A stretch of 38,943 nt of DNA from Gammaproteobacteria bacterium (GTDB lineage: Bacteria; Pseudomonadota; Gammaproteobacteria; HK1). The number at the start of each line of letters is the position of its first letter. Position 1 is the stretch's first letter. Position numbers and translations under genes: made by a program. Below the pieces are notes generated by a model, which saw nothing but the letters and a program-made list of their open reading frames with translations, did not search any database and was not told the origin of the DNA. Shown piece by piece: positions 11,520 through 37,823 of this stretch. The stretch covers positions 1 to 38,943 of the forward strand of contig JAJDUQ010000201.1 of assembly GCA_022826505.1 (NCBI GenBank), given 5' to 3'.

Positions 11520-11540
11520 CCACCAAGGGAACCATCCACC

Positions 11541-11556
11541 TGTGAAATCGATTCGG
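11541..11556. promoter_or_regulatory. Third LacI-type operator-like site before the binding-protein gene
   Basis: TGTGAAATCGATTCGG shares its first seven bases and its CG centre with the two operators upstream of the regulator gene. It abuts the ribosome-binding site (GGGGAG, 11555-11560) of the binding-protein gene, a position where a bound repressor could block elongation or initiation. The right half-site is poorer than in the other two copies. Confidence 0.4.
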
Positions 11557-11567
11557 GGAGAACCAAC

Positions 11568-12575
11568 ATGAAATCTGCAAGGCTCGTCGCCGCCGCTCTG
11601 GGCGCCATCGCGATCACGTTCTCGAACGTCGCTCCCGCCGCCGATGCCATCTGCTACAACTGTCCGCCGCAATGGGCGGACTGGGCAAGCATGCTCAAGG
11701 CCATCGAGAAGAATCTCGGGTACGAGATCCCGCACGACAACAAGAACTCCGGACAGACCCTGTCGCAGCTCATCGCCGAGAAGGACAGCCCGGTCGCCGA
11801 CGTCGCGTACTACGGCGTGTCCTTCGGCATCCAGGCGAAGGAGAAGCAGGTCACCGAAGCGTACAAGCCCGCCAATTTCGACGACATTCCCGACGGGCTC
11901 AAGGACTCGGAAGGGCACTGGTTCACGATCCACTACGGAACTCTCGGCCTGTTCGTGAACGTGGACGCACTCGGTGGCGCGGCGGTGCCGACATCGTGGG
12001 CCGATCTGCTGAAGCCGGAGTACGACGGCAAGGTCGGCTACCTCGACCCGAGCAGCGCCTTCGTCGGCTACGCGGGAGCGGTGGCGGTGAACCTCGCCAT
12101 GGGCGGTTCGCTGGACGACTTCTCGCCGGGCATCGAGTTCTTCAGGAAGCTGAAGGAAAACGACCCCATCGTGCCCAAGCAGACCTCGTACGCCCGGGTG
12201 CTGTCCGGTGAGATCCCGATCCTGTTCGACTACGACTTCAACGCCTACCGGGCCAAGTACAAGGACGAGGCGAACGTGGCGTTCGTGATTCCGCAGGAGG
12301 GCACGGTGGTGGTGCCGTACGTGATGAGTCTGGTCAAGGGCGCACCGAATCCGGACAAGGGCCGAAAGATCCTGGACTTCATCATGTCCGACCAGGGTCA
12401 GGCGATGTGGGCCAATGCCTATCTCCGGCCCATCCGGGCGGAGGCGATGTCCGACGACGTGGCCTCGAAGTTCAATCCGGCCTCCGACTATGCCCGTGCG
12501 GCACCCATCGACTACGCGAAGATGGCCGCGGTTCAGGTCGGGTTCCGTGACCGGTACCTGAACGAAGTCCGGTAG
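11568..12575 (+). CDS. Periplasmic solute-binding protein of an ABC importer
   Basis: The 335-residue protein has a clear signal peptide (MKSARLVAAALGAIAITFSN, probable cleavage after APAADA near residue 27), followed by the fold of family 1 / ferric- and spermidine-type binding proteins: DVAYYGVSFGIQAKEK, HYGTLGLFVNVDALGG, PTSWADLLKPEYDGKVGY and GRKILDFIMSDQGQ. The mature N-terminus contains a CxxC pair (Cys29 and Cys32), unusual for this fold and possibly a disulfide. The ligand is not known. The combination with a phosphodiesterase at the end of the operon suggests an organic phosphate, phosphodiester or phosphonate. Confidence 0.88.
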   Translation: MKSARLVAAALGAIAITFSNVAPAADAICYNCPPQWADWASMLKAIEKNLGYEIPHDNKNSGQTLSQLIAEKDSPVADVAYYGVSFGIQAKEKQVTEAYKPANFDDIPDGLKDSEGHWFTIHYGTLGLFVNVDALGGAAVPTSWADLLKPEYDGKVGYLDPSSAFVGYAGAVAVNLAMGGSLDDFSPGIEFFRKLKENDPIVPKQTSYARVLSGEIPILFDYDFNAYRAKYKDEANVAFVIPQEGTVVVPYVMSLVKGAPNPDKGRKILDFIMSDQGQAMWANAYLRPIRAEAMSDDVASKFNPASDYARAAPIDYAKMAAVQVGFRDRYLNEVR

Positions 12576-12584
12576 GACGCAGTC

Positions 12585-12618
12585 GGGCCGGCGGGGCGGC
12601 GAGCCGCCTTGCCGGTCC
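12585..12618 (+). terminator. Strong intergenic hairpin between binding protein and permease genes
   Basis: Arms at 12585-12600 (GGGCCGGCGGGGCGGC) and 12603-12618 (GCCGCCTTGCCGGTCC) pair along 16 positions, 13 as Watson-Crick pairs and three as G-U in the RNA, with a very tight turn. There is no run of U after it, so it is more likely to be a partial attenuator or an mRNA-stabilising structure than a complete terminator. This would leave more binding protein than permease. Confidence 0.6.
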
Positions 12619-12632
12619 GTGAGCGGCCGGCC

Positions 12633-13454
12633 GTGAAACATCGCGAACTGCACCACCTCACGCTGCTGGTGTTGCCGTCGTTGACGGTGTTCGCGGCGTT
12701 CTTTCTGTTGCCGATGGCACGGCTGGTGATGGTGGCGGGCAGCGGCGACCTGGGCGCCCGTGCCTACGTGGCCTTCCTGACGACGCCGCGCTACCTGGAA
12801 AGCCTGATTGCAACCATCGTGCTGTCCGCGAGCGTGACCGTGGCGACGCTGGCGATATCGGTCGTGTCCGGACTCTTCCTCGAACGCAACCGGTTCTCGG
12901 GACGAAAGATCCTGATCTCGCTGCTTACCTTCCCGCTGGCGTTTCCGGGAGTGGTGGTGGGGTTCATGGTCATCATGCTCGCGGGCCGGCAAGGGCTCAT
13001 CGGAGATATCACGCTGGCGCTCGCCGGGGACAAGCTCGTGTTCGCGTACTCCATGGCGGGACTGTTCATGGGCTACGTCTACTTTTCGATTCCCCGGGTG
13101 GTCCTCACCATCATGGCGGCCGCGGAGAAGCTCAATCCGGCGCTGGAGGAGGCGGCCCGTTCGCTGGGGGCGTCGCCCTGGCTCGTCGTCAAGGACGTCA
13201 TCCTGCCCGGTCTGAAGCCGGCCCTGATCGCGTCCGGGGCCATCTGCTTCGCCACCGCGATGGGCGCCTTCGGTACCGCCTTCACGCTGGCGACCGACAT
13301 CGACGTTCTGCCGATGACCATCTACACCGAGTTCACGCTGAACGCGAACATCGCCATGGCGGCCGCGCTGAGCATCGTGCTGGGCCTGATCACCTGGATC
13401 GCGCTGAATGCGGCCCGTTCGCTGGCCGGCTCCACCGTCGCGGCGGCCGGTTGA
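12633..13454 (+). CDS. ABC importer permease, first subunit
   Basis: The 273-residue integral membrane protein has about six hydrophobic segments, beginning at LTLLVLPSLTVFAAFFLL, and the cytoplasmic coupling motif EEAARSLGASPWLVVKDVI followed by LPGL, the EAA loop that contacts the ATPase. It belongs to the PotB/CysT-like permease group. A TTG at 12609 would add eight residues, but that start lies inside the strong intergenic hairpin, so the GTG at 12633 (MKHRELHH) is preferred. It is the third gene of the operon and is followed after 7 bases by the second permease. Confidence 0.88.
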   Translation: MKHRELHHLTLLVLPSLTVFAAFFLLPMARLVMVAGSGDLGARAYVAFLTTPRYLESLIATIVLSASVTVATLAISVVSGLFLERNRFSGRKILISLLTFPLAFPGVVVGFMVIMLAGRQGLIGDITLALAGDKLVFAYSMAGLFMGYVYFSIPRVVLTIMAAAEKLNPALEEAARSLGASPWLVVKDVILPGLKPALIASGAICFATAMGAFGTAFTLATDIDVLPMTIYTEFTLNANIAMAAALSIVLGLITWIALNAARSLAGSTVAAAG

Positions 13455-13461
13455 GGGAACG

Positions 13462-14331
13462 ATGGGCCGATCGCGCTACTTCCCGATCCAGCTCGCGTTC
13501 ACGCTGCTGGTGTGCGCATTCCTGATCGTGCCCGTGTGCATGTCCGTCATGGCCGGGTTCACGAGCAACTTCTTCCAGGGCATCAAGAGCGGCTTCACCC
13601 TGCGGTGGGTGTTCGAGGTCTGGGACCTGTACGCCGACACCATCTTCCTGTCCATGGGCATCGCCCTGGCCTGTCTCGCGTGCACGATCGTTCTCGGCGT
13701 TCCCGCCGCCTACGTGCTGGCCAAGCGACCAGGGCGCGTCACTCGCATGATCGAGGAGTTCCTGGTGCTTCCCCTCGCCATTCCCGGACTGGCGATCGCG
13801 CTCGCGCTGATCATCAGCTACGGCCAGATTCGGGGGTTTCGCCTGAGCTGGACCTTCATCCTCGTGGGCCACGTGCTGTACACGCTGCCCTTCATGATTC
13901 GCGCGGTGCTCGCGGTGCTGTCGTCCACCGACTTCAAGACCCTGGAGGAAAGCGCCGCAAGCCTCGGGGCACGGTTCTGGCAACGCTTCTTCCAGATCGT
14001 GATCCCCAACTGTCGGTCCGGCATCCTGGCCGGCTCCCTGATGGTGGTGACGCTTTCCATCGGGGAGTTCAACCTCACCTGGATGTTGCACACGCCCCTG
14101 ACGAAGACGTTGCCGGTGGGACTGGCGGACAGTTACGCGTCCATGCGCCTGGAGATCGGCAGCGCCTACACGGTAGTGTTCCTGATCATGCTGATTCCCC
14201 TGCTCATGGCTCTGCAGCTCTGGGGTCAACCCCGCGCCCCTCGCAAGGTCATTCCGGAAGACGACTCGCTCGACGGCGAATCGGGCCGTTCCATCGAGTC
14301 CTCGATTTCTTCCGGCCGCACGAACGCGTGA
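13462..14331 (+). CDS. ABC importer permease, second subunit
   Basis: The 289-residue protein has about six membrane helices, starting FPIQLAFTLLVCAFLIVPVC, and an EAA-type coupling loop EESAASLGARFWQRFFQIV followed by IPN. It resembles PotC-like permeases and should form a heterodimer with the product of the gene 7 bases upstream. The ATG at 13462 follows the stop of the first permease closely and has AGGGA before it. The C-terminal tail after the last helix is hydrophilic and acidic-serine-rich (EDDSLDGESGRSIESSISS), longer than usual for the family but unlikely to affect transport. Confidence 0.9.
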   Translation: MGRSRYFPIQLAFTLLVCAFLIVPVCMSVMAGFTSNFFQGIKSGFTLRWVFEVWDLYADTIFLSMGIALACLACTIVLGVPAAYVLAKRPGRVTRMIEEFLVLPLAIPGLAIALALIISYGQIRGFRLSWTFILVGHVLYTLPFMIRAVLAVLSSTDFKTLEESAASLGARFWQRFFQIVIPNCRSGILAGSLMVVTLSIGEFNLTWMLHTPLTKTLPVGLADSYASMRLEIGSAYTVVFLIMLIPLLMALQLWGQPRAPRKVIPEDDSLDGESGRSIESSISSGRTNA

Positions 14332-14352
14332 GCCAGGATTTCAGGCCGACCG

Positions 14353-15402
14353 ATGATCGCCGGTACCGCCGTCTCCCTGATCGAATGTGCGAAGACCTTC
14401 GCCGACGGCACGCGCGCCCTGTGGCCGCTGAGTCTCGAAATCGAAGACGGCGAGACCGTGGTCTTCCTGGGGCCGTCCGGCTGCGGCAAGACCACCACTC
14501 TTCGAATCATCGCCGGGCTCGAGAGTCCCGATCCGGGCGGGCGGGTGCTGTTCAACGGGGAAGACGTGACGCAGGTGCCAATCGAGCTGCGCAACGTCGG
14601 GATGGTGTTTCAGTCCTATGCCCTGTTCCCGAACATGAACGTCGAGCAGAACGTCGCCTACGGACTGAAGGTGAGGAAGGTCTCCGGCGAAGAAATCGCG
14701 CGGCGCGTTCGCGAAATGCTCGAGATGATGGACATCGTGGAGCTGAAGGATCGGGAGATCGATCAGCTCTCCGGCGGACAGCGCCAGCGGGTGGCGCTCG
14801 CGAGAGCCATCGCGGTGCAGCCTCGCGTGCTGTTGCTCGACGAGCCGCTCACCGCGCTCGATGCGCTGCTGCGCGAGCGCTTGAGAGTGGATATCGACGC
14901 CCTGCTGCGCCGGCTCGGCATCACCGCCATCTACGTCACCCACGATCAGGCGGAGGCCATGGCGCTGGGTGATCGAATCGTGGTGATGAGCCACGGCAGG
15001 GTCGCGCAGGTCGGCACCCCTCGTCAGATCTACTACCAGCCGTCGAACCGGTTCGTGGCCGACTTCATCGGCACCATGAACCGGGTGCGCGGCGTGATCT
15101 CCAACGGAGTGGTCCGGACCGCGGCCGGCGCGATTCCCTGGAGCAAGGAGGGAGCGGGGGAGGTCGAGGTGCTGTTTCGGCCCGAGAACCTGACGTTCAC
15201 CGACCCCGGCGAAGGGCACCTGGCCGGTGTCGTGGAAGCCGCATTCTTTCTTGGCGACCGCACTCGGATCATCGTCAGGGGCGGCGGCGACACGGTGCTG
15301 GTGGTGGAGACCTCGGACCGGCACGAGTTCACGCAAGGCGAGAACGTCGGACTGGTTGTCGGGCCGGATACCCTGACGATTCCGGATGGGGAGGCGCCGT
15401 GA
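14353..15402 (+). CDS. ABC importer ATPase
   Basis: The 349-residue ATPase has Walker A GPSGCGKTT, the Q-loop MVFQSYALFPNMNV, signature LSGGQRQRVALARAIA, Walker B VLLLDEPLTALD and switch YVTHDQAEAMALGDR, all intact. A C-terminal TOBE-type region (residues about 270-345, with VLFRPENLTF) is typical of the PotA/UgpC/FbpC class and often regulates uptake. It energises the two permeases immediately upstream. Together with the binding protein it forms a complete type I importer. The gene is followed after 22 bases by the phosphodiesterase, which is likely in the same operon. Confidence 0.93.
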   Translation: MIAGTAVSLIECAKTFADGTRALWPLSLEIEDGETVVFLGPSGCGKTTTLRIIAGLESPDPGGRVLFNGEDVTQVPIELRNVGMVFQSYALFPNMNVEQNVAYGLKVRKVSGEEIARRVREMLEMMDIVELKDREIDQLSGGQRQRVALARAIAVQPRVLLLDEPLTALDALLRERLRVDIDALLRRLGITAIYVTHDQAEAMALGDRIVVMSHGRVAQVGTPRQIYYQPSNRFVADFIGTMNRVRGVISNGVVRTAAGAIPWSKEGAGEVEVLFRPENLTFTDPGEGHLAGVVEAAFFLGDRTRIIVRGGGDTVLVVETSDRHEFTQGENVGLVVGPDTLTIPDGEAP

Positions 15403-15424
15403 TTCGAAGCATCGAGATGCCGGC

Positions 15425-16246
15425 ATGTTGATTGCACAGATTACCGATACCCATATCAAGACCGAAGGCAGGCTGGCCTACCGGAAGGTGAATACCGCGG
15501 CCAATCTGGCTCGGTGTGTCGAGCACCTCGGGCGACTCGATCCGAGACCCGACATCGTGCTCATGACCGGCGATCTCGTGGACTTCGGGAAACCGGAGGA
15601 GTACCGCCTGCTGCGGCGGCTCATCGCTCCACTGGAGTGTCCGGTCTACGTCATTCCCGGCAATCACGACGATCGCGAGAACCTGCGTCGTGCCTTCTCC
15701 GACCACGACTACCTGCCCGACGACGGGGAGTTCCTGCACTACGCGGTAGAGGACTATCCGGTCCGACTGATCGGTCTCGACACCACGATTCCCGGTGCGC
15801 CGGGCGGGACCTTGTGCGACCGGCGCCTGGAGTGGCTCGACCGAACCCTGGCGCAGGCGCCCGATCGCCCGACGGCGCTCTACATGCACCATCCTCCGTT
15901 CCTGACCGGCATCACCCACATGGACGTCCAGAACTGCGATGCCGGCGATGCCCTGGGCGCGCTGATCGAATCCCACCCTCAGGTGATGAGGGTGATGTGC
16001 GGTCATGTGCACCGACCCATCCAGCTCCAGTGGCACGGCGTGACCGCCTCCATCGCCCCGAGTCCATCGCACTACGTGGCGTTCGATCTGCGCGAGAACG
16101 GTCCACCGTGCTTCGTCATCGAACCCGCGCTCTGCCAGCTTCATCATTGGCGGGAGGACACGGGCCTTGTCAGCCACTTGAGCTTCATCGGCAGTTTCGA
16201 AGGTCCCTTCCCGTTCTTCGACGAGCACGGAAAGCTGATAGATTGA
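15425..16246 (+). CDS. Calcineurin-like phosphodiesterase (CpdA/GpdQ family)
   Basis: The 273-residue metallophosphoesterase shows every metal motif of the class III phosphodiesterases in order: QITDTHIK, LMTGDLVDFG, IPGNHDDREN, YMHHPPF and MCGHVHRPI. It lacks a signal peptide and should be cytoplasmic, acting on what the importer brings in. Family members hydrolyse cyclic nucleotides or glycerophosphodiesters. The ATG at 15425 gives the normal family start MLIAQITDTH; an earlier GTG-type frame at 15386 overlaps the ATPase gene and is not needed. As the last gene of the operon it points to a phosphodiester or related phosphate compound as the transported substrate. Confidence 0.9.
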   Translation: MLIAQITDTHIKTEGRLAYRKVNTAANLARCVEHLGRLDPRPDIVLMTGDLVDFGKPEEYRLLRRLIAPLECPVYVIPGNHDDRENLRRAFSDHDYLPDDGEFLHYAVEDYPVRLIGLDTTIPGAPGGTLCDRRLEWLDRTLAQAPDRPTALYMHHPPFLTGITHMDVQNCDAGDALGALIESHPQVMRVMCGHVHRPIQLQWHGVTASIAPSPSHYVAFDLRENGPPCFVIEPALCQLHHWREDTGLVSHLSFIGSFEGPFPFFDEHGKLID

Positions 16247-28467: not shown

Positions 28468-29505
28468 ATGAAGTTTCAGCTCGCAATCAACATGGAGCGC
28501 CTGTCGCCGAACCTCGACATGGCAGACGTCGAGCGCCATACGCTGGAGATGGTGCAGATGGCCGACGAGGGCGGGTTCGCGATTGCGTGGGCGGCCGAGC
28601 ACCATGCGCTGGAGATGACCATCGCTCCCAATCCGTTCCAGATCCTGACCTGGTGGGCGGCTCATACGTCCCGGATCAGACTGGGCTCGGCGGTTGTGGT
28701 CGCGGCATACTGGCATCCCATCAAGGCCGCGGGCGAGGCGGCACTGCTCGATCTCTACAGCGGCGGGCGGCTCGAGTTCGGCATCGGCTCCGGCGCATAC
28801 CAGCGCGAGTTCGACCGCATGCATCCCGGCCTCGCGCGCACGGACGGCTTCCGCTACATGTACGAGATGCTGCCGGCCGTGAAGGCCCTGTGGCAGGGCG
28901 ACTACGAGCACCACGGCGAGTTCTGGTCCTTTCCCGCCGCGACCTCGGTGCCGAAGCCGGTGCAGAGACCGCATCCGCCGATCTGGATCGCGGCGCGTTC
29001 GCCGGACACGTACGACTTCGCGGTCAAGCACGAGTGCAACATACTCTCCTGGGCCCTCACGCGTCCGATGTCCGAGGTCGAGCTGTACCGGGGCCACCTG
29101 GAGAAGGCCCTGGCCGACAACCCCGGCGCGCGGCGGCCGCTCTTCGCCACCATGCGCCACACCGTGGTCTACGAGCGCAAGGAGGACTGGGAGGTGCCGG
29201 TGAAGGCCGCGATGCGCCAGTTCGGCCAGTTCGAGAACCTGTTCAAGAACCTCGGCGACGTGGCCGACGGATTTCCCCGGACCGTCGATCTCTCGGAGCT
29301 GGAGAACCGCGGCGAGTACGACCCGCGCATGCTCCACGACAACCTCCTGTTCGGCACCCCGGACGAGGTGATCGCGAAGCTCCGGGCCTACGACGCGCTC
29401 GGCGTCGACCACTTCACGTACTACGCGAGCCTGGGCCTGGGGATGAAGGAGCAGAAACGGTCGCTGGAGCTGTTCGTCAAGGAAGTGATGCCGGCATTCG
29501 CGTGA
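28468..29505 (+). CDS. LLM-class flavin-dependent oxidoreductase
   Basis: The 345-residue protein has the bacterial-luciferase-like barrel: MKFQLAINMERL, MADEGGFAIAWAAEHHAL, IRLGSAVVVAAYWHPIKAAGEAAL and LDLYSGGRLEFGIGSGAYQREF, the last being a flavin phosphate-binding segment. It should use reduced FMN from a separate reductase and oxygen to oxidise a small substrate. The ATG at 28468 is preceded by GGGAGG 8 bases upstream. It is the first gene of a run with a CaiD-like hydratase and a carnitine dehydrogenase-like gene, 43 and 8 bases apart, so a role in carnitine or betaine metabolism is plausible but not demonstrated. Confidence 0.88.
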   Translation: MKFQLAINMERLSPNLDMADVERHTLEMVQMADEGGFAIAWAAEHHALEMTIAPNPFQILTWWAAHTSRIRLGSAVVVAAYWHPIKAAGEAALLDLYSGGRLEFGIGSGAYQREFDRMHPGLARTDGFRYMYEMLPAVKALWQGDYEHHGEFWSFPAATSVPKPVQRPHPPIWIAARSPDTYDFAVKHECNILSWALTRPMSEVELYRGHLEKALADNPGARRPLFATMRHTVVYERKEDWEVPVKAAMRQFGQFENLFKNLGDVADGFPRTVDLSELENRGEYDPRMLHDNLLFGTPDEVIAKLRAYDALGVDHFTYYASLGLGMKEQKRSLELFVKEVMPAFA

Positions 29506-29548
29506 ACGGACCGCGAACCGCCGGGACCGCCCGCTGCGAGGGAACGAC

Positions 29549-30352
29549 GTGACACGACATGTAGAGATTGCCCGCGACGGCCCGATCGTCGAGATCAGGC
29601 TGAACAAGCCCAAGGTCAACGCCATCGACCATGCGATGAGTCGGGAACTCGGCGAGGCGTTCGCGACGCTGCGTGACGACCCCGAGCTGAGGGTGGCGAT
29701 TCTGACCGCCGAGGGCGATCGGATCTTCTCCGCCGGCTGGGATCTGAAGGCGCTGGACGCCGGGCAGGCCCAGCTCGACGAGTGGTGGGACGACGGCGAC
29801 TACGGGGAAGGCGGCTTTGCCGGCCTGACCGAGAACTGGACCCTGAACAAACCGGTGGTGGTCGCCCTGAACGGGCTCGCGATCGGCGGCGGATTCGAGC
29901 TGGCCCTGGCCGGTGATCTGATCATCGCGGCCGACCACGTGGAGTTCGCGCTCCCCGAGATGCCGCTCGGCATGGTGCCGGACGCCGGCGCCATTCAGCG
30001 CCTGCCGCGACGCATTCCCTGCAACATCGCGATGGAAATGCTGTTGATGGGACGCCGGATGGGTGCGGAAGAGGCGGCGCGATACGGTCTTGTCAACAAG
30101 GTCGTTCCGAAGGACGAGCTGATGGAGTGCGCGCGGGCCTGGGCGGCGCAGCTCGCCGAGGCGGCACCCCTTGCCATGCAGAGCGTGAAGGAGGTGCTGC
30201 GGGCCATCGAATGCCGTCCGCTCGAGCATGCGTTCGGCGTCATGCGCACCGGAGAGCTTCCGGTCTACCGAGCCATGCTGCAGTCGGAGGACGCCGCGGA
30301 GGGCGTGCGCGCCTTCGTGGAGAAGCGCAAGCCGCGGTTCAAGGGCCGGTAG
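29549..30352 (+). CDS. Enoyl-CoA hydratase family, CaiD-like (carnitinyl-CoA dehydratase)
   Basis: The 267-residue crotonase resembles E. coli CaiD throughout, including the oxyanion block FSAGWDLKA, the helix ALNGLAIGGGFELALAGD, the ALPEMPLGMVPDAG loop, GRRMGAEEAARYGLVN and the C-terminal EKRKPRFKGR. The acidic residues expected for catalysis are seen in GFELAL and ALPEMP. CaiD interconverts crotonobetainyl-CoA and L-carnitinyl-CoA, and the neighbouring dehydrogenase argues for that role here. The start is GTG at 29549 with GAGGGA upstream. It is followed by the dehydrogenase after 8 bases. Confidence 0.87.
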   Translation: MTRHVEIARDGPIVEIRLNKPKVNAIDHAMSRELGEAFATLRDDPELRVAILTAEGDRIFSAGWDLKALDAGQAQLDEWWDDGDYGEGGFAGLTENWTLNKPVVVALNGLAIGGGFELALAGDLIIAADHVEFALPEMPLGMVPDAGAIQRLPRRIPCNIAMEMLLMGRRMGAEEAARYGLVNKVVPKDELMECARAWAAQLAEAAPLAMQSVKEVLRAIECRPLEHAFGVMRTGELPVYRAMLQSEDAAEGVRAFVEKRKPRFKGR

Positions 30353-30360
30353 TCGCGGGC

Positions 30361-31314
30361 ATGCCCAGACCGCGCCCGGAGGAGGTGCGCTGCGTCGCCA
30401 GCCTGGGCGGCGGCCCCATCGGTGGGGGCTGGACCGCGTTCTTCCTCGCCCGGGGCTACGACGTGTGCAGCTATCTGCACGACGCTGCCGAGGAGAAGAG
30501 GTTTCGCGGCATCGTCGGGACTGCGTGGCGCATCCTCGAGGCCCTCGGCCTGGATGAGCGGGCGTCGCTGGACCGGCTGCGTGTTTCATTCGATCTCGCC
30601 GAAGCGGTCGGCACCGCGGAGTTCGTGCAGGAGAGCGCTCCCGAGGTCCTCGATGTCAAGCAGGCCCTCTACTCGACTCTGGGCCGCCTGACGCCCCCGG
30701 AGGTGATCATCGCGTCGAGCACGTCGGGGCTGCCCATGACCGACATTCAGGCGCGGTGTCCGACGCCCGCGCGCACGGTGGTCGGACATCCGTTCAATCC
30801 GCCGTATCTGCTGCCCCTGGTGGAGATCACGGGAGGCCGAGAGACCTCGGTGGACGCGATCGAGTGGGCACAGACGTTCTACCGCGCGGCGGGCAAGGAA
30901 CCGCTGGTGCTGAAACGCGAAGTCCCCGGGTTCGTCGCAACCCGACTGCAGGAGGCGCTGTGGCGCGAAGCGCTGCACATGGTCGCCAACGGCGAGGCGA
31001 CGCCGGAGCAGATCGATTTCGCCCTGATGCACGGACCCGGACCCCGGCTTGCGCTGATGGGTCAGTGCATGGCGTTTCACGTGGCGTGCGGCGAGGGCGG
31101 CATGGCCACCAATCTGGATCAGTTCGGTCCCGCGCTCGATCTGCCCTGGTCCCGGCTTGTCGCGCCGGCCCTGACCAGGGAGCTTCGCGATCGCATGGTC
31201 GACGGCTGCGACGCGATGGCGGCGGGACGAAGCTTCGAGGAACTTGCGGCGGAGCGGGATCGGGGAATCGTCGCGATTCTCCGCGCGATCAGGGCCACTC
31301 GACGCGGTCCATGA
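30361..31314 (+). CDS. L-carnitine dehydrogenase-like 3-hydroxyacyl-CoA dehydrogenase family protein
   Basis: The 317-residue protein has an N-terminal NAD-binding motif (SLGGGPIGGGW) and a 3-hydroxyacyl-CoA dehydrogenase active site in VVGHPFNPPYLLPLVE with the His and Glu of the catalytic pair. VQESAPEVLDVKQ, VPGFVATRLQEALWREALH and FGPALDLPW match bacterial L-carnitine dehydrogenases such as Pseudomonas CdhA. It would oxidise L-carnitine to 3-dehydrocarnitine with NAD. Its last 26 bases overlap the end of the convergent regulator gene. Context with the beta-keto acid cleavage enzyme strengthens the assignment over a generic 3-hydroxybutyryl-CoA dehydrogenase. Confidence 0.85.
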   Translation: MPRPRPEEVRCVASLGGGPIGGGWTAFFLARGYDVCSYLHDAAEEKRFRGIVGTAWRILEALGLDERASLDRLRVSFDLAEAVGTAEFVQESAPEVLDVKQALYSTLGRLTPPEVIIASSTSGLPMTDIQARCPTPARTVVGHPFNPPYLLPLVEITGGRETSVDAIEWAQTFYRAAGKEPLVLKREVPGFVATRLQEALWREALHMVANGEATPEQIDFALMHGPGPRLALMGQCMAFHVACGEGGMATNLDQFGPALDLPWSRLVAPALTRELRDRMVDGCDAMAAGRSFEELAAERDRGIVAILRAIRATRRGP

Positions 31315-32392
31315 ACCCGCGACCCGTCTCCGCCGTCTCGATGCGGCGTCGGCGCGCGAGCCGGGCTCGCTCGACGAAGGCGAACAGGGTTCCCGGCCAC
31401 GAGGGTGCGGGATCGCCCTCCGGCCATGCCTGGCGGTACTCGCTCGGCCGCCGCGAGAAGCACCGGGAGAACGCCTGCGAGAAGTAGGACAGGGAGTTGA
31501 AGCCGCACGCGACCGACACCTCGCGGATCGACATGCGCGTGCTGGTCAGCAGCACCCGGGCATACTGCAGCCTGAGAAGCTGGCTGAACTGGACGACGGA
31601 ACATCCGAGGTGGCGCTGGAACAGCCGCTCGATCTGGCGCTGCGAGATGCCCAGCCCGGCCGCGATTCTCGGGACCGGCCACGGCTCGTCGACATGCTCC
31701 TCGATGAGCGCGATGGCGGCCTTGACGTCCGGGTGCAGCGCGTCGGTGGCTGCGCCCATGGTGTGGCGTTGAGGGGCGTCCGCGAGCCTGACGGGGTGGT
31801 GCAGAATCTGGTCCGCGATCTCCGATGCGAGCTGCGCGCCGTGCCGTTCGGAGATGAGGTGCAGCATGAGATCAAGGCTCGCGGTCCCGCCGGCGCAGGT
31901 CATCACGGATCCGTCGGTGGTAAAGGCCTGCTCGCGCACGAACGTGTCGGGGAACTGCTCCGCGAACCCGGCCAGGATGGACCAGTGGGTGGTGGCGAGC
32001 CGATTGCGCAGCAGGCCGGCGCGGGCCAGCAGGTAGGCACCGGACTCCAGCGCGATCAGAGTGGCTCCGCGTCCCGCCTGGCGGCGCAGCCACTGGAACA
32101 GATCGGGGGACCGAAAGTGCTCGCATCCCCAGCTCCCGCAGAGCACCACGACGTCGAGCGGTCCCTCGGATGCCTCGACGGAAGACGACGCGACCGTCAT
32201 GCCGTTGCTGGCGGTGACCATGCCCCCCGCGGGTGAACGGTACTCCCACTCGAACAGCGTCTCCGGCGCCAGATAGTTGGCGACGCGCATCGGCTCGATG
32301 GCCGCCGTCAGCGACATCATGTTGAACCGGGGAACGACCACGAACGTGACCCTGGTCGTCCGGGTCCCGTTCGTGTCGCGGGAATTCTTCAC
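31289..32392 (-). CDS. GlxA-type AraC-family regulator (CdhR-like)
   Basis: The 367-residue protein has an N-terminal DJ-1/GATase1-like domain (residues about 15-190) and a C-terminal double helix-turn-helix (RIAAGLGISQRQIERLFQRH then IREVSVACGFNSLSYFSQAF). The catalytic cysteine of the GATase1 domain is replaced in ALESGAYLLARAGLL, as expected for a sensor rather than an enzyme. The GTG at 32392 is preceded by GGGAGG and decides the start. In Pseudomonas the homologous CdhR activates carnitine catabolic genes; here it faces the keto-acid cleavage gene and converges on the dehydrogenase, so the same role is likely. Confidence 0.88.
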   Translation of the reverse strand: MKNSRDTNGTRTTRVTFVVVPRFNMMSLTAAIEPMRVANYLAPETLFEWEYRSPAGGMVTASNGMTVASSSVEASEGPLDVVVLCGSWGCEHFRSPDLFQWLRRQAGRGATLIALESGAYLLARAGLLRNRLATTHWSILAGFAEQFPDTFVREQAFTTDGSVMTCAGGTASLDLMLHLISERHGAQLASEIADQILHHPVRLADAPQRHTMGAATDALHPDVKAAIALIEEHVDEPWPVPRIAAGLGISQRQIERLFQRHLGCSVVQFSQLLRLQYARVLLTSTRMSIREVSVACGFNSLSYFSQAFSRCFSRRPSEYRQAWPEGDPAPSWPGTLFAFVERARLARRRRIETAETGRGFMDRVEWP

Positions 32393-32887
32393 GGATGCGG
32401 CCTCCCAGCGCGAGATTCTCGCCGACGCACAGCCGCGGGCGCCGACCTGCCGGCATGGGCTGCGCGGTGGCGTGCTCCCTTCGGGCGCCGCCATCCGCTC
32501 CTCGCGGAATCATGGACGCGCCCCGGGGCTCGACGTGCTGTCAAGTCCCTGCCGCCCTGCGCAGTCCCTGCTTCGAAATGCTTGCACCGCCACCGGTTCA
32601 TCTGAGCAGAGTATCTGTCGAAAAACAAACACAAGTGGCGAGAATTCTACAGATGGCCCGTCATGCGAACCGCAAAATGGTCGATATGCGAGGGCGGAAC
32701 GCTGGCGGTGTGGTACGTGGCCCGAACATTCGGCGATCAGTGCCTGGACGCACAAATCGCGAAACGTTCGGGCGGGTTCGAAGGGGCGTGCGGACGAATG
32801 GACACGCTGCCGAGGACATCCGGACCGCAATTCGACTCGGTCGCAGCGACGGCGGCCATGCGACGTTTGCAGGGAGGTTTCCGACAC
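32393..32887. promoter_or_regulatory. Divergent regulatory region between the CdhR-like gene and the keto-acid cleavage gene
   Basis: This 495-base gap is richer in A and T near 32600-32660 than the rest of the window, and it should contain both promoters. It holds TGTCGAAA at 32616-32623 and GTCGATATGCGA at 32680-32691, both related to the palindrome at 28370-28385. An upstream in-frame extension of the keto-acid gene to 32663 is open but has no family-like sequence. Confidence 0.45.
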
Positions 32888-33772
32888 ATGAACTACGAGG
32901 TGGTGGTGACTTGCGCGGTGACCGGCGCGGGGGACACGGTGAGCAGGCATCCGGGGGTCCCGGTCACCCCCGAGCAGGTCGCGGACGCGGCCATCGAGGC
33001 GGCTCGGGCCGGCGCGGCGATCGCCCACATCCACGTCCGAGATCCCGAGACCGGCAAGGGGAGCCGGGATCCGGCGCTGTTCCGGGAAGCCGTGGAGCGG
33101 GTGCGGGCGAGCGACACCGACGTGGTGATCAACCTCACGAGCGGCATGGGCGGCGACTGGGCGTCGAGCGCGGACAATCCCGCGATGCCCGGCCCGGGCA
33201 CCGACATGGTGGGGCCGGTGGAGCGCCTTGTTCACGTCGCGGAGTTGCGGCCCGAGATCTGCAGCATCGACTGCGGCACGATGAACTTCGGCGACGGCGA
33301 CGAGATCTACATCTCCACCCCGGCCTGCCTGCGCGCGATGGCCGAGATGGTCAGGGACTGGGGCGTGAAGCCCGAGCTCGAAGTGTTCGAGCTGGGCCAG
33401 ATCCGCTTCGCCCGGCAGATGATTGCGGAAGGTCTGATCAAGGAACCGCCGTTGTTCCAGATCTGCCTCGGCATCCCCTGGGGCGCCGACCACAGCGTCG
33501 ACACCATGAAGGTGATGAAGGACGAGTTGCCCGGCGGGGCGGTGTGGGCAGGATTCGGCATCTCGCGCATGCAGATGCCGCTTGCCGCCGCCGCCGTCGC
33601 GATGGGCGGCAACGTGCGGGTGGGACTGGAGGACAATCTCTATCTCAGCCGCGGGGTGCTGGCCACCAACGCCGAGCTGGTCGAGCGGGCGGTTCGTATC
33701 GTGGAACTGATGGGCGCGAGAGTGGTCGGCCCCGAGGAAGCCCGCGAGAGGCTGGGTCTGCGCCGGCACTGA
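32888..33772 (+). CDS. Beta-keto acid cleavage enzyme (BKACE, DUF849), probable 3-dehydrocarnitine cleavage enzyme
   Basis: The 294-residue TIM-barrel enzyme has the zinc ligands in [13 protein letters not shown] (His47 and His49) and the later metal Glu in [34 protein letters not shown], split in two around the Pro, and [14 protein letters not shown] are typical of the family. BKACE enzymes use acetyl-CoA to cleave beta-keto acids; the dehydrocarnitine-specific members give acetoacetate and betainyl-CoA. The proximity of a CdhR-like regulator and a CdhA-like dehydrogenase supports that substrate. The ATG at 32888 has AGGGAGG upstream. Confidence 0.88.
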
Positions 33773-33840
33773 TTGCGGCCGGAGCGGAGGATCGGCATCG
33801 AGTTGCGCCGGCACCGCATCCGAACACCGGCTGCCTGCCG

Positions 33841-33970
33841 ATGACGTGCCTGTGCAAGCGTTCCGGAGAGGTCGTCGCGATCGCGGATGCCAAGTTGCAC
33901 ATCGGGGGCGGAGAGCTCCTGATCCGGCCGGGCCCCTCGGGAGCCGACAAGACGACGCTGCCGGTACCCC
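33841..33970 (+). pseudogene. Remnant of an ABC transporter ATPase N-terminus
   Basis: A short frame starting at 33841 reads GEVVAIADAKLHIGGGELL and then GPSGADKTTL, which matches the beginning of ABC ATPases up to Walker A. The motif has Asp in place of the last conserved Gly (GPSGADKTT instead of GxxGxGKT), and the similarity stops immediately afterwards. It is therefore a decayed piece, possibly of a betaine or carnitine importer given its position between two catabolic genes. The open frame continues to 34134, overlapping the next gene, without recognisable sequence. Confidence 0.5.
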
Positions 33971-34118
33971 GGCGTGCGCGGGGTGGCATCCGCGAGAACA
34001 TCGATTCAACCGTGACGGCCACCGCGGTGGTGCATTCGGCGTCGACCATCGCCGTCTCGATCGTGCTCGGTCGCCGCGTGCGTGGACGGATCCCGCATTC
34101 CAGACCCGGAGGCTACGG

Positions 34119-35279
34119 ATGGACATCGAGCTGAACCACGAGCAGCGGATGCTGCTCGACACGGTCCGGTCCTTCATGGAACGGGAGATCCATCCGCACG
34201 AAGACGAGGTCGACCGCCGCGGCGAGGTGCCTCCCGAACTCGGGCGCCAGATCGAGGCTCGCGCTATCGAGTCCGGGCTCTACGCCGCAAACCTGCCCGA
34301 GGCGGTGGGTGGGGGAGGGCTCGGTTACCGCAGCATGGCCGTGGTGGAGCGCGAGTACGGCAAGACCAGCCACGCGCTGCATGCCTGGATCGGCCGCCCC
34401 ACGGAAATCCTGCTCGCGTGCGAGGGCGATCAGAGGGAGCGCTACCTGCTGCCCTGCGTGCGAGCGGAGAAGCGCGAGCTCTTCGCCCTCACCGAGCCCG
34501 AGGCGGGGTCCGACATCATGTCGATGAGGACCCATGCCCGGCGCGACGGCGACGACTGGATTCTCAACGGCGCCAAGCACTTCGCGTCCGGTCCCACGAT
34601 GCCGGACTTCGCGATCGTGTTCGCGGCGACCGGCGTGGACGAGACGGCGCGCGGCCCGCGCAAGCGCATCACCGCGTTCCTGGTCGACGTGGGGGAGAAG
34701 GGCTTCCATATCGCGGAGGGCAATCGGTGCGTCAGCTACCGCGGCCACCTCACGTTCCGGCTCCACTTCTCCGACGTGCGGCTCGGCCCGGGCCAGATTC
34801 TGGGCGAGGAGGGCAGGGGGCTCGATCTGTCCGGGAAGTGGCTCGGCATGGGGCGGGTCTGGGTGGGGGCGACCTGCTGCGGCAAGGCGGAGCGGCTGTT
34901 CGGCCTGGCGGCCGAGTGGGCCGCGATGCGCCGCCAGTTCGACCGGCCCATCGGTCAGTTCCAGGCGACGGGATTCAAGCTTGCGGATACCGCCGTGGAA
35001 CTCCGGGCGGCGGATCTGCTGGTGATGCACACGGTGGAGAAGGCCGAGCGCGGCGCGATGACCGAGGCGGACGCGGCGATGGTCAAGCTGTACTGCTCCG
35101 AGATGCTGGGGCGGACCGCCGACCGCACCGTGCAGATTCACGGAGGCATGGGGCTGATGGAGGAGGTCCCGGTCCAGCGCCTGTGGCGCGATGCGCGGCT
35201 GGAGCGAATCTGGGACGGCACCTCCGAGATCCAGCGCCACATCATCACGCGCTCGATTCTCAGGCCGCTCGGTGCGTGA
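34119..35279 (+). CDS. Acyl-CoA dehydrogenase, candidate gamma-butyrobetainyl-CoA dehydrogenase
   Basis: The 386-residue flavoenzyme has the family signatures FALTEPEAGSDIMSM (flavin/substrate loop), GHLTFRLHFSDVRLGPGQILGEEG across two adjacent segments, and RQFDRPIGQFQATGFKLAD and QIHGGMGLMEEVPVQRL. The position normally occupied by the catalytic Glu (YEGT) is Asp366 in IWDGTSEIQR. That is a conservative change, but it may slow or alter catalysis. The ATG at 34119 has CCGGAGG upstream. It lies between the BKACE and an acyl-CoA synthetase, which suggests it removes hydrogen from a quaternary-ammonium acyl-CoA such as gamma-butyrobetainyl-CoA. It needs an electron-transfer flavoprotein, not found here. 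Confidence 0.87.
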   Translation: MDIELNHEQRMLLDTVRSFMEREIHPHEDEVDRRGEVPPELGRQIEARAIESGLYAANLPEAVGGGGLGYRSMAVVEREYGKTSHALHAWIGRPTEILLACEGDQRERYLLPCVRAEKRELFALTEPEAGSDIMSMRTHARRDGDDWILNGAKHFASGPTMPDFAIVFAATGVDETARGPRKRITAFLVDVGEKGFHIAEGNRCVSYRGHLTFRLHFSDVRLGPGQILGEEGRGLDLSGKWLGMGRVWVGATCCGKAERLFGLAAEWAAMRRQFDRPIGQFQATGFKLADTAVELRAADLLVMHTVEKAERGAMTEADAAMVKLYCSEMLGRTADRTVQIHGGMGLMEEVPVQRLWRDARLERIWDGTSEIQRHIITRSILRPLGA

Positions 35280-35289
35280 GTGCGGGACA

Positions 35290-35403
35290 GGGCGGGTCGG
35301 CGGATGAGTGTGGAACGGGGCGGGTCGGCGGATGAGTGTGGAACGGGGTGGGTCGGCGGATGAATGCGGGGCGCGGTGGAGTCGGGCGGATGGGTGCGGG
35401 AGG
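35290..35403. repeat. 28-bp tandem repeat array between acyl-CoA dehydrogenase and synthetase genes
   Basis: Two identical 28-base units (35290-35317 and 35318-35345), each containing GGGTCGGCGGATGAGTGTGG, are followed by a third with four changes (35346-35373) and a diverged fourth to about 35403. The array starts just after the dehydrogenase stop codon. It looks like a short minisatellite that could vary in copy number between strains. No coding function is suggested. Confidence 0.8.
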
Positions 35404-35567
35404 GTGCGGACTCGTGCGGCGCGCATGGGTCCGCGGCTGCGCGAGGGTTCGGCCGGGCGCACGTGGCCGATTCGGCAAGTGGGTCCGGCTCGGCGCAATC
35501 GTTCCGTGCGACGAGTGAATCGGGTGCGGTGCGAGCGTCCGGGATCGTGCAAGGGAGCGGCGCGCGC

Positions 35568-37823
35568 ATGACTCCCTCCCGGCGCCTCAATCTCGAGCGT
35601 CTGCTGAACCCGCGCCACGTGGCCGTCATCGGTGGGCGCGAGGCCGAGACGGTGGCGGGAGAGTGCGCGCGAATCGGTTACCGGGGGCCTGTATGGCCGG
35701 TCAATCCGCGCCGCGAGTCGATCGGCGGACACCGGTGCTTGCGCAGCGTCGACGATCTTCCGGAGCCGCCCGACGCCGCCTTCGTGGCGGTACCGCGCGA
35801 GGCGGCTATCGACACCGTCGCACGGCTGGCCGCGATGGGTGCCGGCGGGGCGGTCTGCCACACCGCGGGGTTCGCCGAGACCGGAGGCGAGGGAGCGCGG
35901 CTCGAGGCGGCGCTGGTCGAGGCGGCCGGCGACCTCGCCCTGATCGGTCCGAACTGCTATGGCTTCATCAACTACCTCGATCGGGCCGCCCTGTGGCCGT
36001 TCGCGCACGGGGGCTCGTGTCCGGGCTACGGCGCCGCCATCGTCACCCAGAGCGGCATGCTCTCCTCCGATCTCACCATGAGTCAGCGCTCGGTGCCGTT
36101 CGCGTTCATGGCCTCGATCGGGAACCAGTCGGTGGTGACCCTGGCCGACTGCGTCGACGTCTTCGCCGGTTTTCGCGGAGTGCGGGCCATCGGGCTGCAC
36201 ATCGAGGACATTCCGGACGTCGCCGAATTCTCGGTAGCGGTCCGCGAGGCGGTGGGTGCCGGTATCCCGGTGGTTGCACTGAAGACCGGGGTATCGGAGA
36301 TCGGGGCGCGCCTGACCGTCAGCCATACCGGCGCACTGTCCGGCGACGACGATCTCTACCAGGCCCTGTTCGACCGTCTCGGCGTCATCCGGGTCTCCAC
36401 CCCCGCCCAGCTTCTGGAGACGCTGAAGTTCCTGTGCGTGGCGGGCGTGCCGGAGGGAGATCGAGTCGCCGGCCTCACCTGCTCGGGCGGCGCCGCGGCG
36501 ATGCTCGCCGACTACGCGCAGGTCGTCGGGCTTCGGTTTCCGCCGCCGTCCGGGCGGACGGCCGGACGTCTCGCCGAGTGCCTGCCCCACACTGCCACGG
36601 TCTCGAATCCGCTCGATTACACCACCCCGATATGGGGCATGCCGGAACACGTCGGGGCGGTGTTCGGGACCATGTTCGAGGACCCTTTCGACATCGCGGT
36701 GATCGTGCAGGACTACCCTCTCGAGGGACTCGACGAGAGCAAGGACAGCTACCTGAGCGACGCGCGGTCGTTCGTCGCGGCGACGCGGGCGGCGGGGATT
36801 CCGGCCGCGGTGTGCAGCACGTTGCCGGAGAACCTCGACCGGGCCACCCGGGAGATGCTGATCACGGATGGGGTGGCGCCGATGCAGGGACTCCGCGAGG
36901 CCCTGGACGCCATCGCGGGCGCGGTCTGGCACGGGCGGCAGCGGGAGCGGATGCGGCGCGAGGCGCGCGCGGTCGGCGCGCAAGCCGGTGCGGCGCCGCC
37001 GATTGGAGTGGGGTGTGCGTTCGGGACCGAAGCCGAGGCTGGCGACCGCTTCGAAGCCGAGGCCCGGGCAGCAGCCGGCGCGGGAGTGGGAGTTCGGGCC
37101 GGCGCGGGTGCGGAGGTCGAAGCCGGTGCCGGGGTCGCGGCCCGTCTTGCCGGGACCGGCCCCGTGACGAGCGTCGACGAGCATCGGGCCAAGCGCTGGC
37201 TGCACGGGGTCGGGATCCCGATCCCCGCCGGTTGCGTGACGGGTGCGCGTGCCGCGCCGGAGGTCGCGGCGAGCATCGGGTTTCCGGTTGCGGTGAAGCT
37301 TGTGAACGAGCACTTGCCGCACAAGACCGAGGCCGGTGCCGTCGCCCTGGGGATTTCGAGTCCGGCGGAGGTGGAGGCCGCGGTTGCCCGGATCCACGCC
37401 GGCGTGCGCCGCTTCGACGCGGGCGCTTCGGCGGACCGGTTCCTCGTCGAGCGCATGGTCGGGCCGCCGCTGGCCGAGCTACTGGTCGGCGTTCGGACCG
37501 ACCCCCGGTTCGGGCTCGCGATGACACTTGCGAGCGGTGGTGTCCTGACCGAGCTGGTGGCGGACGCGGTGACAATTCTGCTGCCGGCGTCGCGCGCCGA
37601 TCTGGAGGAGGCGCTGGGGCGGTTGCGCATGTCCCGTCTGCTGGACGGATTCCGGAGCGCCGCGCCGGCGAATCGGGCCGTGGTCGTCGACGCGCTGTCC
37701 CGGCTCGCATCGCGCCTGTGTCGCGAGGACAACGACGTCGTGGAGGTCGAGGTCAATCCGCTGTTCGTCCTGACCGATCGCGTCTGCGCGGTCGACGCGC
37801 TGATGCGGGTGCGCGGGGAGTGA
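35568..37823 (+). CDS. NDP-forming acyl-CoA synthetase, fused alpha and beta domains
   Basis: The 751-residue protein has a CoA-binding Rossmann domain (NPRHVAVIGGREAE, VWPVNPRRESIGG), succinyl-CoA-ligase-like domains with a probable phosphohistidine His253 in TVSHTGALSGDDD, and a C-terminal ATP-grasp domain (IPIPAGCVTGARAAPEVAASIG in two adjacent parts, then KLVNEHLPHKTEAGAVALG and VVEVEVNPLFVL). These enzymes make acyl-CoA from acid, CoA and ATP with ADP release. A low-complexity Ala/Gly/Glu-rich linker of about 65 residues (residues about 464-530) joins the halves. Its location suggests it activates gamma-butyrobetaine or carnitine. The ATG at 35568 has AAGGGAG upstream. Confidence 0.88.
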   Translation: MTPSRRLNLERLLNPRHVAVIGGREAETVAGECARIGYRGPVWPVNPRRESIGGHRCLRSVDDLPEPPDAAFVAVPREAAIDTVARLAAMGAGGAVCHTAGFAETGGEGARLEAALVEAAGDLALIGPNCYGFINYLDRAALWPFAHGGSCPGYGAAIVTQSGMLSSDLTMSQRSVPFAFMASIGNQSVVTLADCVDVFAGFRGVRAIGLHIEDIPDVAEFSVAVREAVGAGIPVVALKTGVSEIGARLTVSHTGALSGDDDLYQALFDRLGVIRVSTPAQLLETLKFLCVAGVPEGDRVAGLTCSGGAAAMLADYAQVVGLRFPPPSGRTAGRLAECLPHTATVSNPLDYTTPIWGMPEHVGAVFGTMFEDPFDIAVIVQDYPLEGLDESKDSYLSDARSFVAATRAAGIPAAVCSTLPENLDRATREMLITDGVAPMQGLREALDAIAGAVWHGRQRERMRREARAVGAQAGAAPPIGVGCAFGTEAEAGDRFEAEARAAAGAGVGVRAGAGAEVEAGAGVAARLAGTGPVTSVDEHRAKRWLHGVGIPIPAGCVTGARAAPEVAASIGFPVAVKLVNEHLPHKTEAGAVALGISSPAEVEAAVARIHAGVRRFDAGASADRFLVERMVGPPLAELLVGVRTDPRFGLAMTLASGGVLTELVADAVTILLPASRADLEEALGRLRMSRLLDGFRSAAPANRAVVVDALSRLASRLCREDNDVVEVEVNPLFVLTDRVCAVDALMRVRGE

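Follow-up and report, generated by a model that had tools for sequence, protein, structure and literature searches.

In E. coli, the cai operon encodes CaiT, CaiA, CaiB, CaiC and CaiD. Here, we describe a seven-gene cluster at positions 28468-37823 of a 38,943-nucleotide stretch of gammaproteobacterial DNA (the window), which is the entire contig JAJDUQ010000201.1 (C133) of a 6.23 Mb assembly (GCA_022826505.1; completeness 94.5, contamination 7.36). The cluster resembles the cai operon in that its hydratase is closest to the CaiD model and an acyl-CoA dehydrogenase is present. It differs in that neither CaiB nor CaiC is found among the seven genes, CaiA is not the best match of the acyl-CoA dehydrogenase, and the predicted route ends with a CdhA-like dehydrogenase and a BKACE.

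Other described systems share further parts of this set. Pseudomonas aeruginosa is reported to have the carnitine operon caiX-cdhCAB-hocS with cdhR, and a CdhR site has been published (PMC5806209). The window cluster likewise has a BKACE (CdhC) in the same cluster as the dehydrogenase, and its AraC regulator is of the GATase type and is transcribed in the direction leading away from the catabolic genes. Set against the operon as given there, it lacks a thioesterase and caiX, adds an NDP-forming acyl-CoA synthetase (ACD), an acyl-CoA dehydrogenase, a hydratase and a luciferase-like (LLM) flavin oxidoreductase, does not have the published CdhR site in its regulator-BKACE stretch, and its dehydrogenase falls below the CdhA cut-off. 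The rhizobial carnitine 3-dehydrogenase is reported to be fused to a betainyl-CoA thioesterase, as in Sinorhizobium meliloti SM2011_c01638 (PMC12482172, citing Bazire 2019). In Rhizobium sp. CC-CFT758, one such locus (L055) matches the regulator, BKACE, dehydrogenase, acyl-CoA dehydrogenase, ACD and hydratase of the window, but the window dehydrogenase is unfused, belongs to another clade and lacks Asp39. A SAR11 genomic island is described as carrying carnitine dehydrogenase, BKACE, gamma-butyrobetaine dioxygenase and acyl-CoA thioesterase genes (PMC12421898). It too pairs a CdhA-like dehydrogenase with a BKACE in marine bacteria, but it uses a dioxygenase route, and the four Pelagibacteraceae rows in our tree lie outside the clade of the window protein and have no ACD or LLM gene. 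Finally, the ATP-dependent dimethylsulfoniopropionate lyase DddX is reported to form the CoA thioester of a marine zwitterion (PMC8163506). DddX belongs to the ACD superfamily like the window ligase, but it is third among the ligase's solved relatives (176.6 bits).

The cluster is conserved in gene content and order in related genomes, and its dehydrogenase falls in a distinct clade. Quite possibly, although we stop short of calling it probable, it encodes a paralogous route of CoA activation, beta-oxidation and BKACE cleavage for gamma-butyrobetaine or a close analogue. A search of Creative Commons-licensed papers gave no recognised description of this cluster, which does not show its absence from print.

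Gene content and conservation of the cluster

All seven genes are uninterrupted open reading frames (ORFs), and each matches the expected Pfam domains. On the plus strand, the LLM gene (28468-29505, 345 aa; Bac_luciferase, 190 bits) is followed by genes for the CaiD-like enoyl-CoA hydratase (29549-30352, 267 aa; ECH_1) and the CdhA-like 3-hydroxyacid dehydrogenase (30361-31314, 317 aa; 3HCDH_N, 3HCDH), which has no thioesterase domain. The AraC/DJ-1-type, CdhR/GbdR-like regulator gene (31289-32392, minus strand; HTH_18, DJ-1_PfpI), with a possible alternative start at 32494, is transcribed away from the BKACE gene and its 3′ end overlaps the 3′ end of the dehydrogenase gene. The set is completed on the plus strand by BKACE (32888-33772; PF05853, 335 bits), the acyl-CoA dehydrogenase (34119-35279, 386 aa; Acyl-CoA_dh domains) and a single-chain ACD (35568-37823, 751 aa; Succ_CoA_lig, CoA_binding_2, ATP-grasp_5). 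The first-pass annotation, made from the DNA alone, had described these genes in this arrangement with no thioesterase or CaiB, and the ORFs, the Pfam matches and the recurrence of the order elsewhere (below) bear this out: neither is among the seven genes. Pfam and NCBIfam searches, confined to the seven genes, also gave no match to a CaiB CoA-transferase or a CaiC ligase.

The annotation had recommended comparison with characterised families, which gave the expected top models for three proteins, all below the curated cut-offs, and an acyl-CoA dehydrogenase not closest to CaiA. The hydratase scored 323.8 bits with the crotonobetainyl-CoA hydratase CaiD model (NF002936; cut-off 500). Among CdhA models (NF005471, NF005716), the dehydrogenase scored 305.8 with L-carnitine dehydrogenase (cut-off 414) and 251.3 with carnitine 3-dehydrogenase (cut-off 592), and three other dehydrogenases of its clade (clade A, below) were likewise under the CdhA cut-offs. 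The regulator scored 251.3 bits with GbdR (cut-off 480). For the acyl-CoA dehydrogenase the closest model was acryloyl-CoA reductase (229.9, cut-off 640), with CaiA at 157.6 (cut-off 540). The top models of the hydratase, dehydrogenase and regulator point to a predicted role in quaternary-amine metabolism. The ACD has the domains and histidine motifs of the NDP-forming acyl-CoA synthetase superfamily (SHTG at residue 252, HKTE at 585), and its best-ranked solved relatives are a 4-hydroxybutyrate-CoA ligase (209 bits) and a 3-hydroxypropionate-CoA ligase (201.8). An Ala/Gly/Val-rich repetitive linker lies between its ligase halves at about residues 485-535; this linker exceeds that of marine relatives, whose ligases have about 700 aa compared with 751.

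The seven-gene set occurs in identical order in two congeners (G002, G003) and on a Parasedimentitalea marina plasmid, so the arrangement is not a matter of chance. The congener proteins are 73-91% identical to those of the window. Between BKACE and the acyl-CoA dehydrogenase, both congeners have four extra genes, which in G003 encode by Pfam an ABC ATPase with a TOBE_2 domain, a solute-binding protein and two permeases; a PotABCD-like ABC importer occupies the same place on the plasmid. At this position (33819-34082, plus strand), the window has a scar, identified by DNA and translated matches to locus L036, in which the start of the ATPase gene (49% identity over 37 aa, E 7e-11) stands beside the terminal part of the final permease gene (53% over 43 aa, E 1e-10). 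Since the scar joins the start of the first importer gene to the end of the last, the importer was lost from the window by internal deletion. An earlier assignment of this remnant, 5′ of the acyl-CoA dehydrogenase gene, as ProV-like was dropped in favour of the TOBE_2-domain ATPase start joined to the permease end. The G004 locus retains the hydratase, dehydrogenase, BKACE, acyl-CoA dehydrogenase and ligase genes, and has no importer, regulator or LLM gene. By eye, its gene upstream of the hydratase (L037, 7341-8693), at the LLM position of other loci, is class III aminotransferase-like. The LLM gene of G002 has a gene for a LarA-type nickel-dependent racemase immediately upstream (L038, 11503-12891, minus strand), whereas that of G003 has none there.

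A candidate operator lies upstream of BKACE as a 39-bp block (32616-32654), identical at 38/39 bases in G003 and 36/39 in G002; it is the sole similarity with E < 1 between window positions 32393-32887 and these congeners. In a scan of 40 loci, its 26-bp core fitted at 24 or more positions only in the window, L036 and L038, with a best fit elsewhere of 19/26 (L005). The published P. aeruginosa CdhR site (GGTCGC-N15-GGTCGC) has no match with up to two mismatches in 32393-32887, and 43 such matches in the window. Elsewhere in the window (10473-16246), genes named by eye as a LacI-like regulator, a solute-binding protein, two permeases, an ATPase and a phosphodiesterase-like gene stand in a row, apparently a separate importer operon.

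Phylogeny and neighbours of the dehydrogenase

Named genomes were scanned with the dehydrogenase alignment and the best 80 of 591 confirmed loci were kept, so the groups below are a sample near the window protein. Together with the Parasedimentitalea plasmid, the congeners and further loci, these gave a quick tree of 86 rows without bootstrap; 22 of 108 dehydrogenase rows were left out of the tree but included in the neighbourhood counts. One locus with an internal stop (L159) enters no count, L056 was omitted as it looks like the same contig as L037, and the L046 dehydrogenase frame contains stops and masked bases. Neighbours were counted within 9 kb of the dehydrogenase gene, with accessory genes called by bit thresholds; as some loci are short or cut, presence counts are lower bounds.

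The window dehydrogenase belongs to clade A (30 rows; Shimodaira-Hasegawa-like approximate likelihood ratio test, 100). Group F is the fused carnitine 3-dehydrogenase-thioesterase lineage (23 rows), group B is a thioesterase-linked, mostly actinobacterial lineage (38 rows) and group S comprises the Pelagibacteraceae rows; 13 rows are unplaced. A thioesterase gene near the dehydrogenase is present in 38/38 group B and 16/23 group F loci, and in none of the four of group S. None of the 30 clade A loci has one, even at E 0.01, and this includes 23 loci with at least 5 kb on each side. Clade A stands as a third, thioesterase-free lineage of the CdhA/BKACE type, separate from the fused and the mostly actinobacterial thioesterase-linked lineages. 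By the identities between groups, for BKACE (A-F 55%, A-B 56%, F-B 55%) and the dehydrogenase (A-B 54%, A-F 42%, F-B 45%), it is no outlier among the carnitine-type groups.

The neighbours of clade A are regular. A hydratase is near the dehydrogenase in 29/30 loci, BKACE in 27 and an acyl-CoA dehydrogenase in 23, with a regulator in 19, an aldehyde dehydrogenase in 15, RidA and an alpha/beta hydrolase in 14 each and a solute-binding protein in 10. Two genes that the first-pass annotation had listed as unusual proved to be regular members. The NDP-forming ligase, taken as an oddity, occurs in 23/30 clade A and 12/23 group F loci (0/38 in B, 0/4 in S), and group F loci such as L122, L125, L049, L055, L169 and L171 have the dehydrogenase-thioesterase, acyl-CoA dehydrogenase, ACD and hydratase together. 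The flavin oxidoreductase, taken as an extra, is present in 19/30 clade A loci compared with 0/65 in the other three groups; an LLM-like gene in L074 is distant and was not counted among the 19. L074 and L077 each have a BCCT transporter gene adjoining the clade A genes, and L072 contains a homologue. The L077 protein scored 434 with a BCCT subfamily model (cut-off 408) and 426 with CaiT (cut-off 541), the top among specific models.

Companion loci, CoA release and the LLM group

Several genomes with the cluster also carry carnitine genes of a more orthodox type. Of 20 clade A genomes searched, at least 12 have a full-length match to the fused dehydrogenase-thioesterase, which in one of them is interrupted by a stop; the same search found it in one plasmid record and three other genomes. 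Matches for both a clade A and an orthodox full set (ligase, acyl-CoA dehydrogenase, hydratase, dehydrogenase and BKACE) were present in four of the six genomes whose orthodox locus was read at length (G058, G059, G063, G073), with the ligase of one set in two pieces in G059 and both sets in line within 19 kb in G073 (Puniceispirillum). The orthodox genes of the latter (L167; C20, 1-18726) are BKACE, the fused dehydrogenase-thioesterase, acyl-CoA dehydrogenase, ACD and hydratase, in line with the clade A set. In the window's own genome, contig C157 has an orthodox-type dehydrogenase gene (L005, 8990-10093, minus strand; 570 bits with the carnitine 3-dehydrogenase model, cut-off 592) that adjoins BKACE and acyl-CoA dehydrogenase genes; its product is missing the thioesterase domain that members of its lineage normally have. 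The 15.9 kb read around it gave no match to ACD, hydratase or thioesterase, and the copies in G001, G002 and G003 likewise have no thioesterase within 9 kb. G002 and G003 have a second locus with an orthodox-type dehydrogenase, acyl-CoA dehydrogenase, ACD and hydratase. These co-occurring loci and parallel sets point to a distinct role for the clade A cluster.

The annotation had proposed that a thioesterase be sought elsewhere in the genome. There are two thioesterase-like genes, on C11 (41% identity to the fused domain) and C52 (34%), and CoA release in trans is therefore possible; no CdhA-like or BKACE gene lies near either in the 15-20 kb read. For demethylation downstream, the MTTB family gave 10 matches in this genome (ten places on eight contigs, including three fragments on C13). 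Each of four congeners has 6 to 10 matches, again counting fragments, compared with one match among 14 control genomes (Methanosarcina acetivorans). This would fit a lineage that uses methylated amines. Ruegeria pomeroyi is reported to demethylate glycine betaine by an MtgB-type system and to raise its CdhABC on carnitine (PMC12478193).

The window LLM protein is 61-86% identical to 17 other copies in clade A loci. On the Parasedimentitalea plasmid, its gene is accompanied by genes for RidA, an AA_synth protein, an enol-lactonase-like hydrolase, a CoA-transferase/flavin-reductase fusion and an aldehyde dehydrogenase whose nearest models are those of betaine-aldehyde dehydrogenase (493 bits, below the cut-off of 669). 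Homologues of these recur across clade A. The group is likely to encode a two-component flavin monooxygenase. The AA_synth partner is absent from G001-G004 and lies on another contig in the window's own genome. A structure model of the LLM protein (mean pLDDT 69) gave generic luciferase-fold matches, with RslO1 the best, and was uninformative on substrate. Trigonelline and uracil (Rut) pathways were considered as analogues of the LLM group, and the literature gave nothing usable on this. LLM homologues (E 1e-90) turned up in 9 of 398 genomes sampled across the phylum, including the window's own, which has two copies. At L187, L188, L189, L192 and L194, the LLM gene with an aldehyde dehydrogenase, an alpha/beta hydrolase and a reductase-like gene occurs without carnitine-type genes, in some cases near PotABCD-like importers or a BCCT-like gene.

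Proposed route and rival readings

In the paralogous route that we tentatively favour, we infer the reactions, their directions and the substrate as follows. ACD would form the CoA thioester of an omega-(quaternary amino) C4-type acid (gamma-butyrobetaine or something closely similar), which the acyl-CoA dehydrogenase would desaturate and the CaiD-like hydratase would hydrate to a carnitinyl-CoA-like product. After CoA release, the CdhA-like enzyme would oxidise the 3-hydroxyl, and BKACE, with acetyl-CoA, would cleave the beta-keto acid to acetoacetate and a betainyl-CoA-like product. CoA may be freed by ACD acting in reverse, which would yield ATP, or by a thioesterase whose gene lies outside the cluster, and we take neither side; the LLM enzyme would probably supply the route from a precursor. 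A fuller version, which we consider unlikely as a whole, would have a reversible ACD that activates the substrate and also regains ATP from two thioesters, one carnitinyl-CoA-like and one betainyl-CoA-like, a dehydrogenase whose nucleotide site is altered, and an LLM monooxygenase that admits a so far unrecognised zwitterion, in marine Alphaproteobacteria and gammaproteobacterial assemblies.

The favoured route is supported by the gene set and order kept in congeners and marine Alphaproteobacteria, the well-supported clade with its recurrent neighbours, the sharing of ligase, acyl-CoA dehydrogenase and hydratase with orthodox fused loci, the BKACE identities between groups, the adjoining BCCT genes, and the co-occurring orthodox loci and parallel sets as signs of a distinct role. 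The BKACE residues H47, H49, R244, E248 and D249, presumably of the zinc site or catalytic by analogy with Kce, are kept in 27/27 clade A rows, and acidic D106 and D128 are conserved. Several results weigh against the favoured route. No NCBIfam model reaches its curated cut-off for the cluster proteins, and clade A hydratases score 295-324 bits with the CaiD model compared with 324-385 for four orthodox-group hydratases (themselves under the cut-off of 500), so the clade A enzymes are not the more CaiD-like. Replacement of the thioesterase by ACD, with CoA release yielding ATP, is attractive but unproven: among 59 tree rows flanked by 5 kb to either side, 26 have ACD without thioesterase, 16 neither, 12 thioesterase only and 5 both, and once phylogeny is allowed for, loss of the thioesterase is not associated with ACD presence (four independent pairs on the starred branches, median p 1). 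In all 30 clade A dehydrogenases, the Rossmann residue Asp39, which we take to act in NAD binding, is replaced by Leu, Ile or Val, and position 194 is Thr. Asp39 is kept in F (23/23) and B (36/38, two gaps), and these groups have Asp or Asn at 194. The clade A BKACEs have W91 (26/27), L169 (27/27) and R173 (26/27), whereas F, B and S enzymes mostly have Leu or Ile, Thr and Trp. By the same rule, private positions in the dehydrogenase and BKACE number 11 and 7 in A, 7 and 2 in B, and 6 and 0 in F. Such clade-wide changes, with the residue roles that we presume, suggest another cofactor preference or substrate, and the missing Asp39 together with Thr194 and R173 could point to a non-quaternary head group. 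The core cluster genes are also absent from the stretches covered at 8/8 LLM places read outside the window cluster (the G384 place left out), showing that the LLM group can stand apart from carnitine-type genes. Five of the eight have an aldehyde dehydrogenase, an alpha/beta hydrolase and a fusion-like gene (probably the reductase part) nearby, and seven of eight such genomes (own excluded, G384 included) have a CdhA-like gene elsewhere (best match 38-48% identical).

The co-occurring orthodox genes bear on the alternative put forward by the first-pass annotation, namely that the cluster is the organism's complete route from gamma-butyrobetaine through L-carnitine to glycine betaine, in an unusual order and with no second substrate. 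We find this rather doubtful. The enzymes fit carnitine-type chemistry, the best family matches all point to carnitine and choline metabolism, the ligase, acyl-CoA dehydrogenase and hydratase recur in orthodox carnitine loci, transporter genes of the BCCT type are next to clade A genes, and the MTTB matches in this genome and its congeners agree with such a route. That part of the claim stands; the claim to be the whole route fares less well, with the more orthodox C157 dehydrogenase beside BKACE and acyl-CoA dehydrogenase genes in the same genome, the second locus in G002 and G003, the fused gene in at least 12/20 clade A genomes, and the parallel sets in 4/6, which together with the lineage-wide residue changes suggest another substrate or cofactor.

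Those residues, W91, L169 and R173 of BKACE and Thr194 of the dehydrogenase, would also suit a route for an acid without a quaternary head group, for example one that the LLM group produces when it oxidises or opens some other compound. In five of the eight LLM loci read, the group with its aldehyde dehydrogenase, hydrolase and fusion-like gene has no carnitine-type genes nearby, and it may bring its own substrate. We regard such a route as quite unlikely, since BCCT genes adjoin the clade, the regulator is most like GbdR and the hydratase most like CaiD. BCCT-linked L074 itself has R173 (L077, also BCCT-linked, has Trp), so this residue alone does not exclude a quaternary amine. Decay of the cluster in this genome, with the pathway no longer working, would account for the importer scar and has a parallel in the reduced G004 locus, but with seven intact ORFs, congener proteins 73-91% identical and the 39-bp block kept, it is very improbable.

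Carnitine, gamma-butyrobetaine and related betaines serve as nutrients for marine and animal-associated bacteria. The paralogous route predicts that genomes with this cluster, often alongside ordinary carnitine genes (Roseobacter-type, SAR116 and uncultured Thiotrichales-type bacteria), possess a second route, which either handles a related compound or differs in its energetics. The LLM enzyme, a CdhA-like enzyme without Asp39 and a BKACE with W91/L169/R173 are offered as its marker genes, and Ruegeria conchae TW15 is a named strain with the cluster in which the substrate and the mode of CoA release could be tested.

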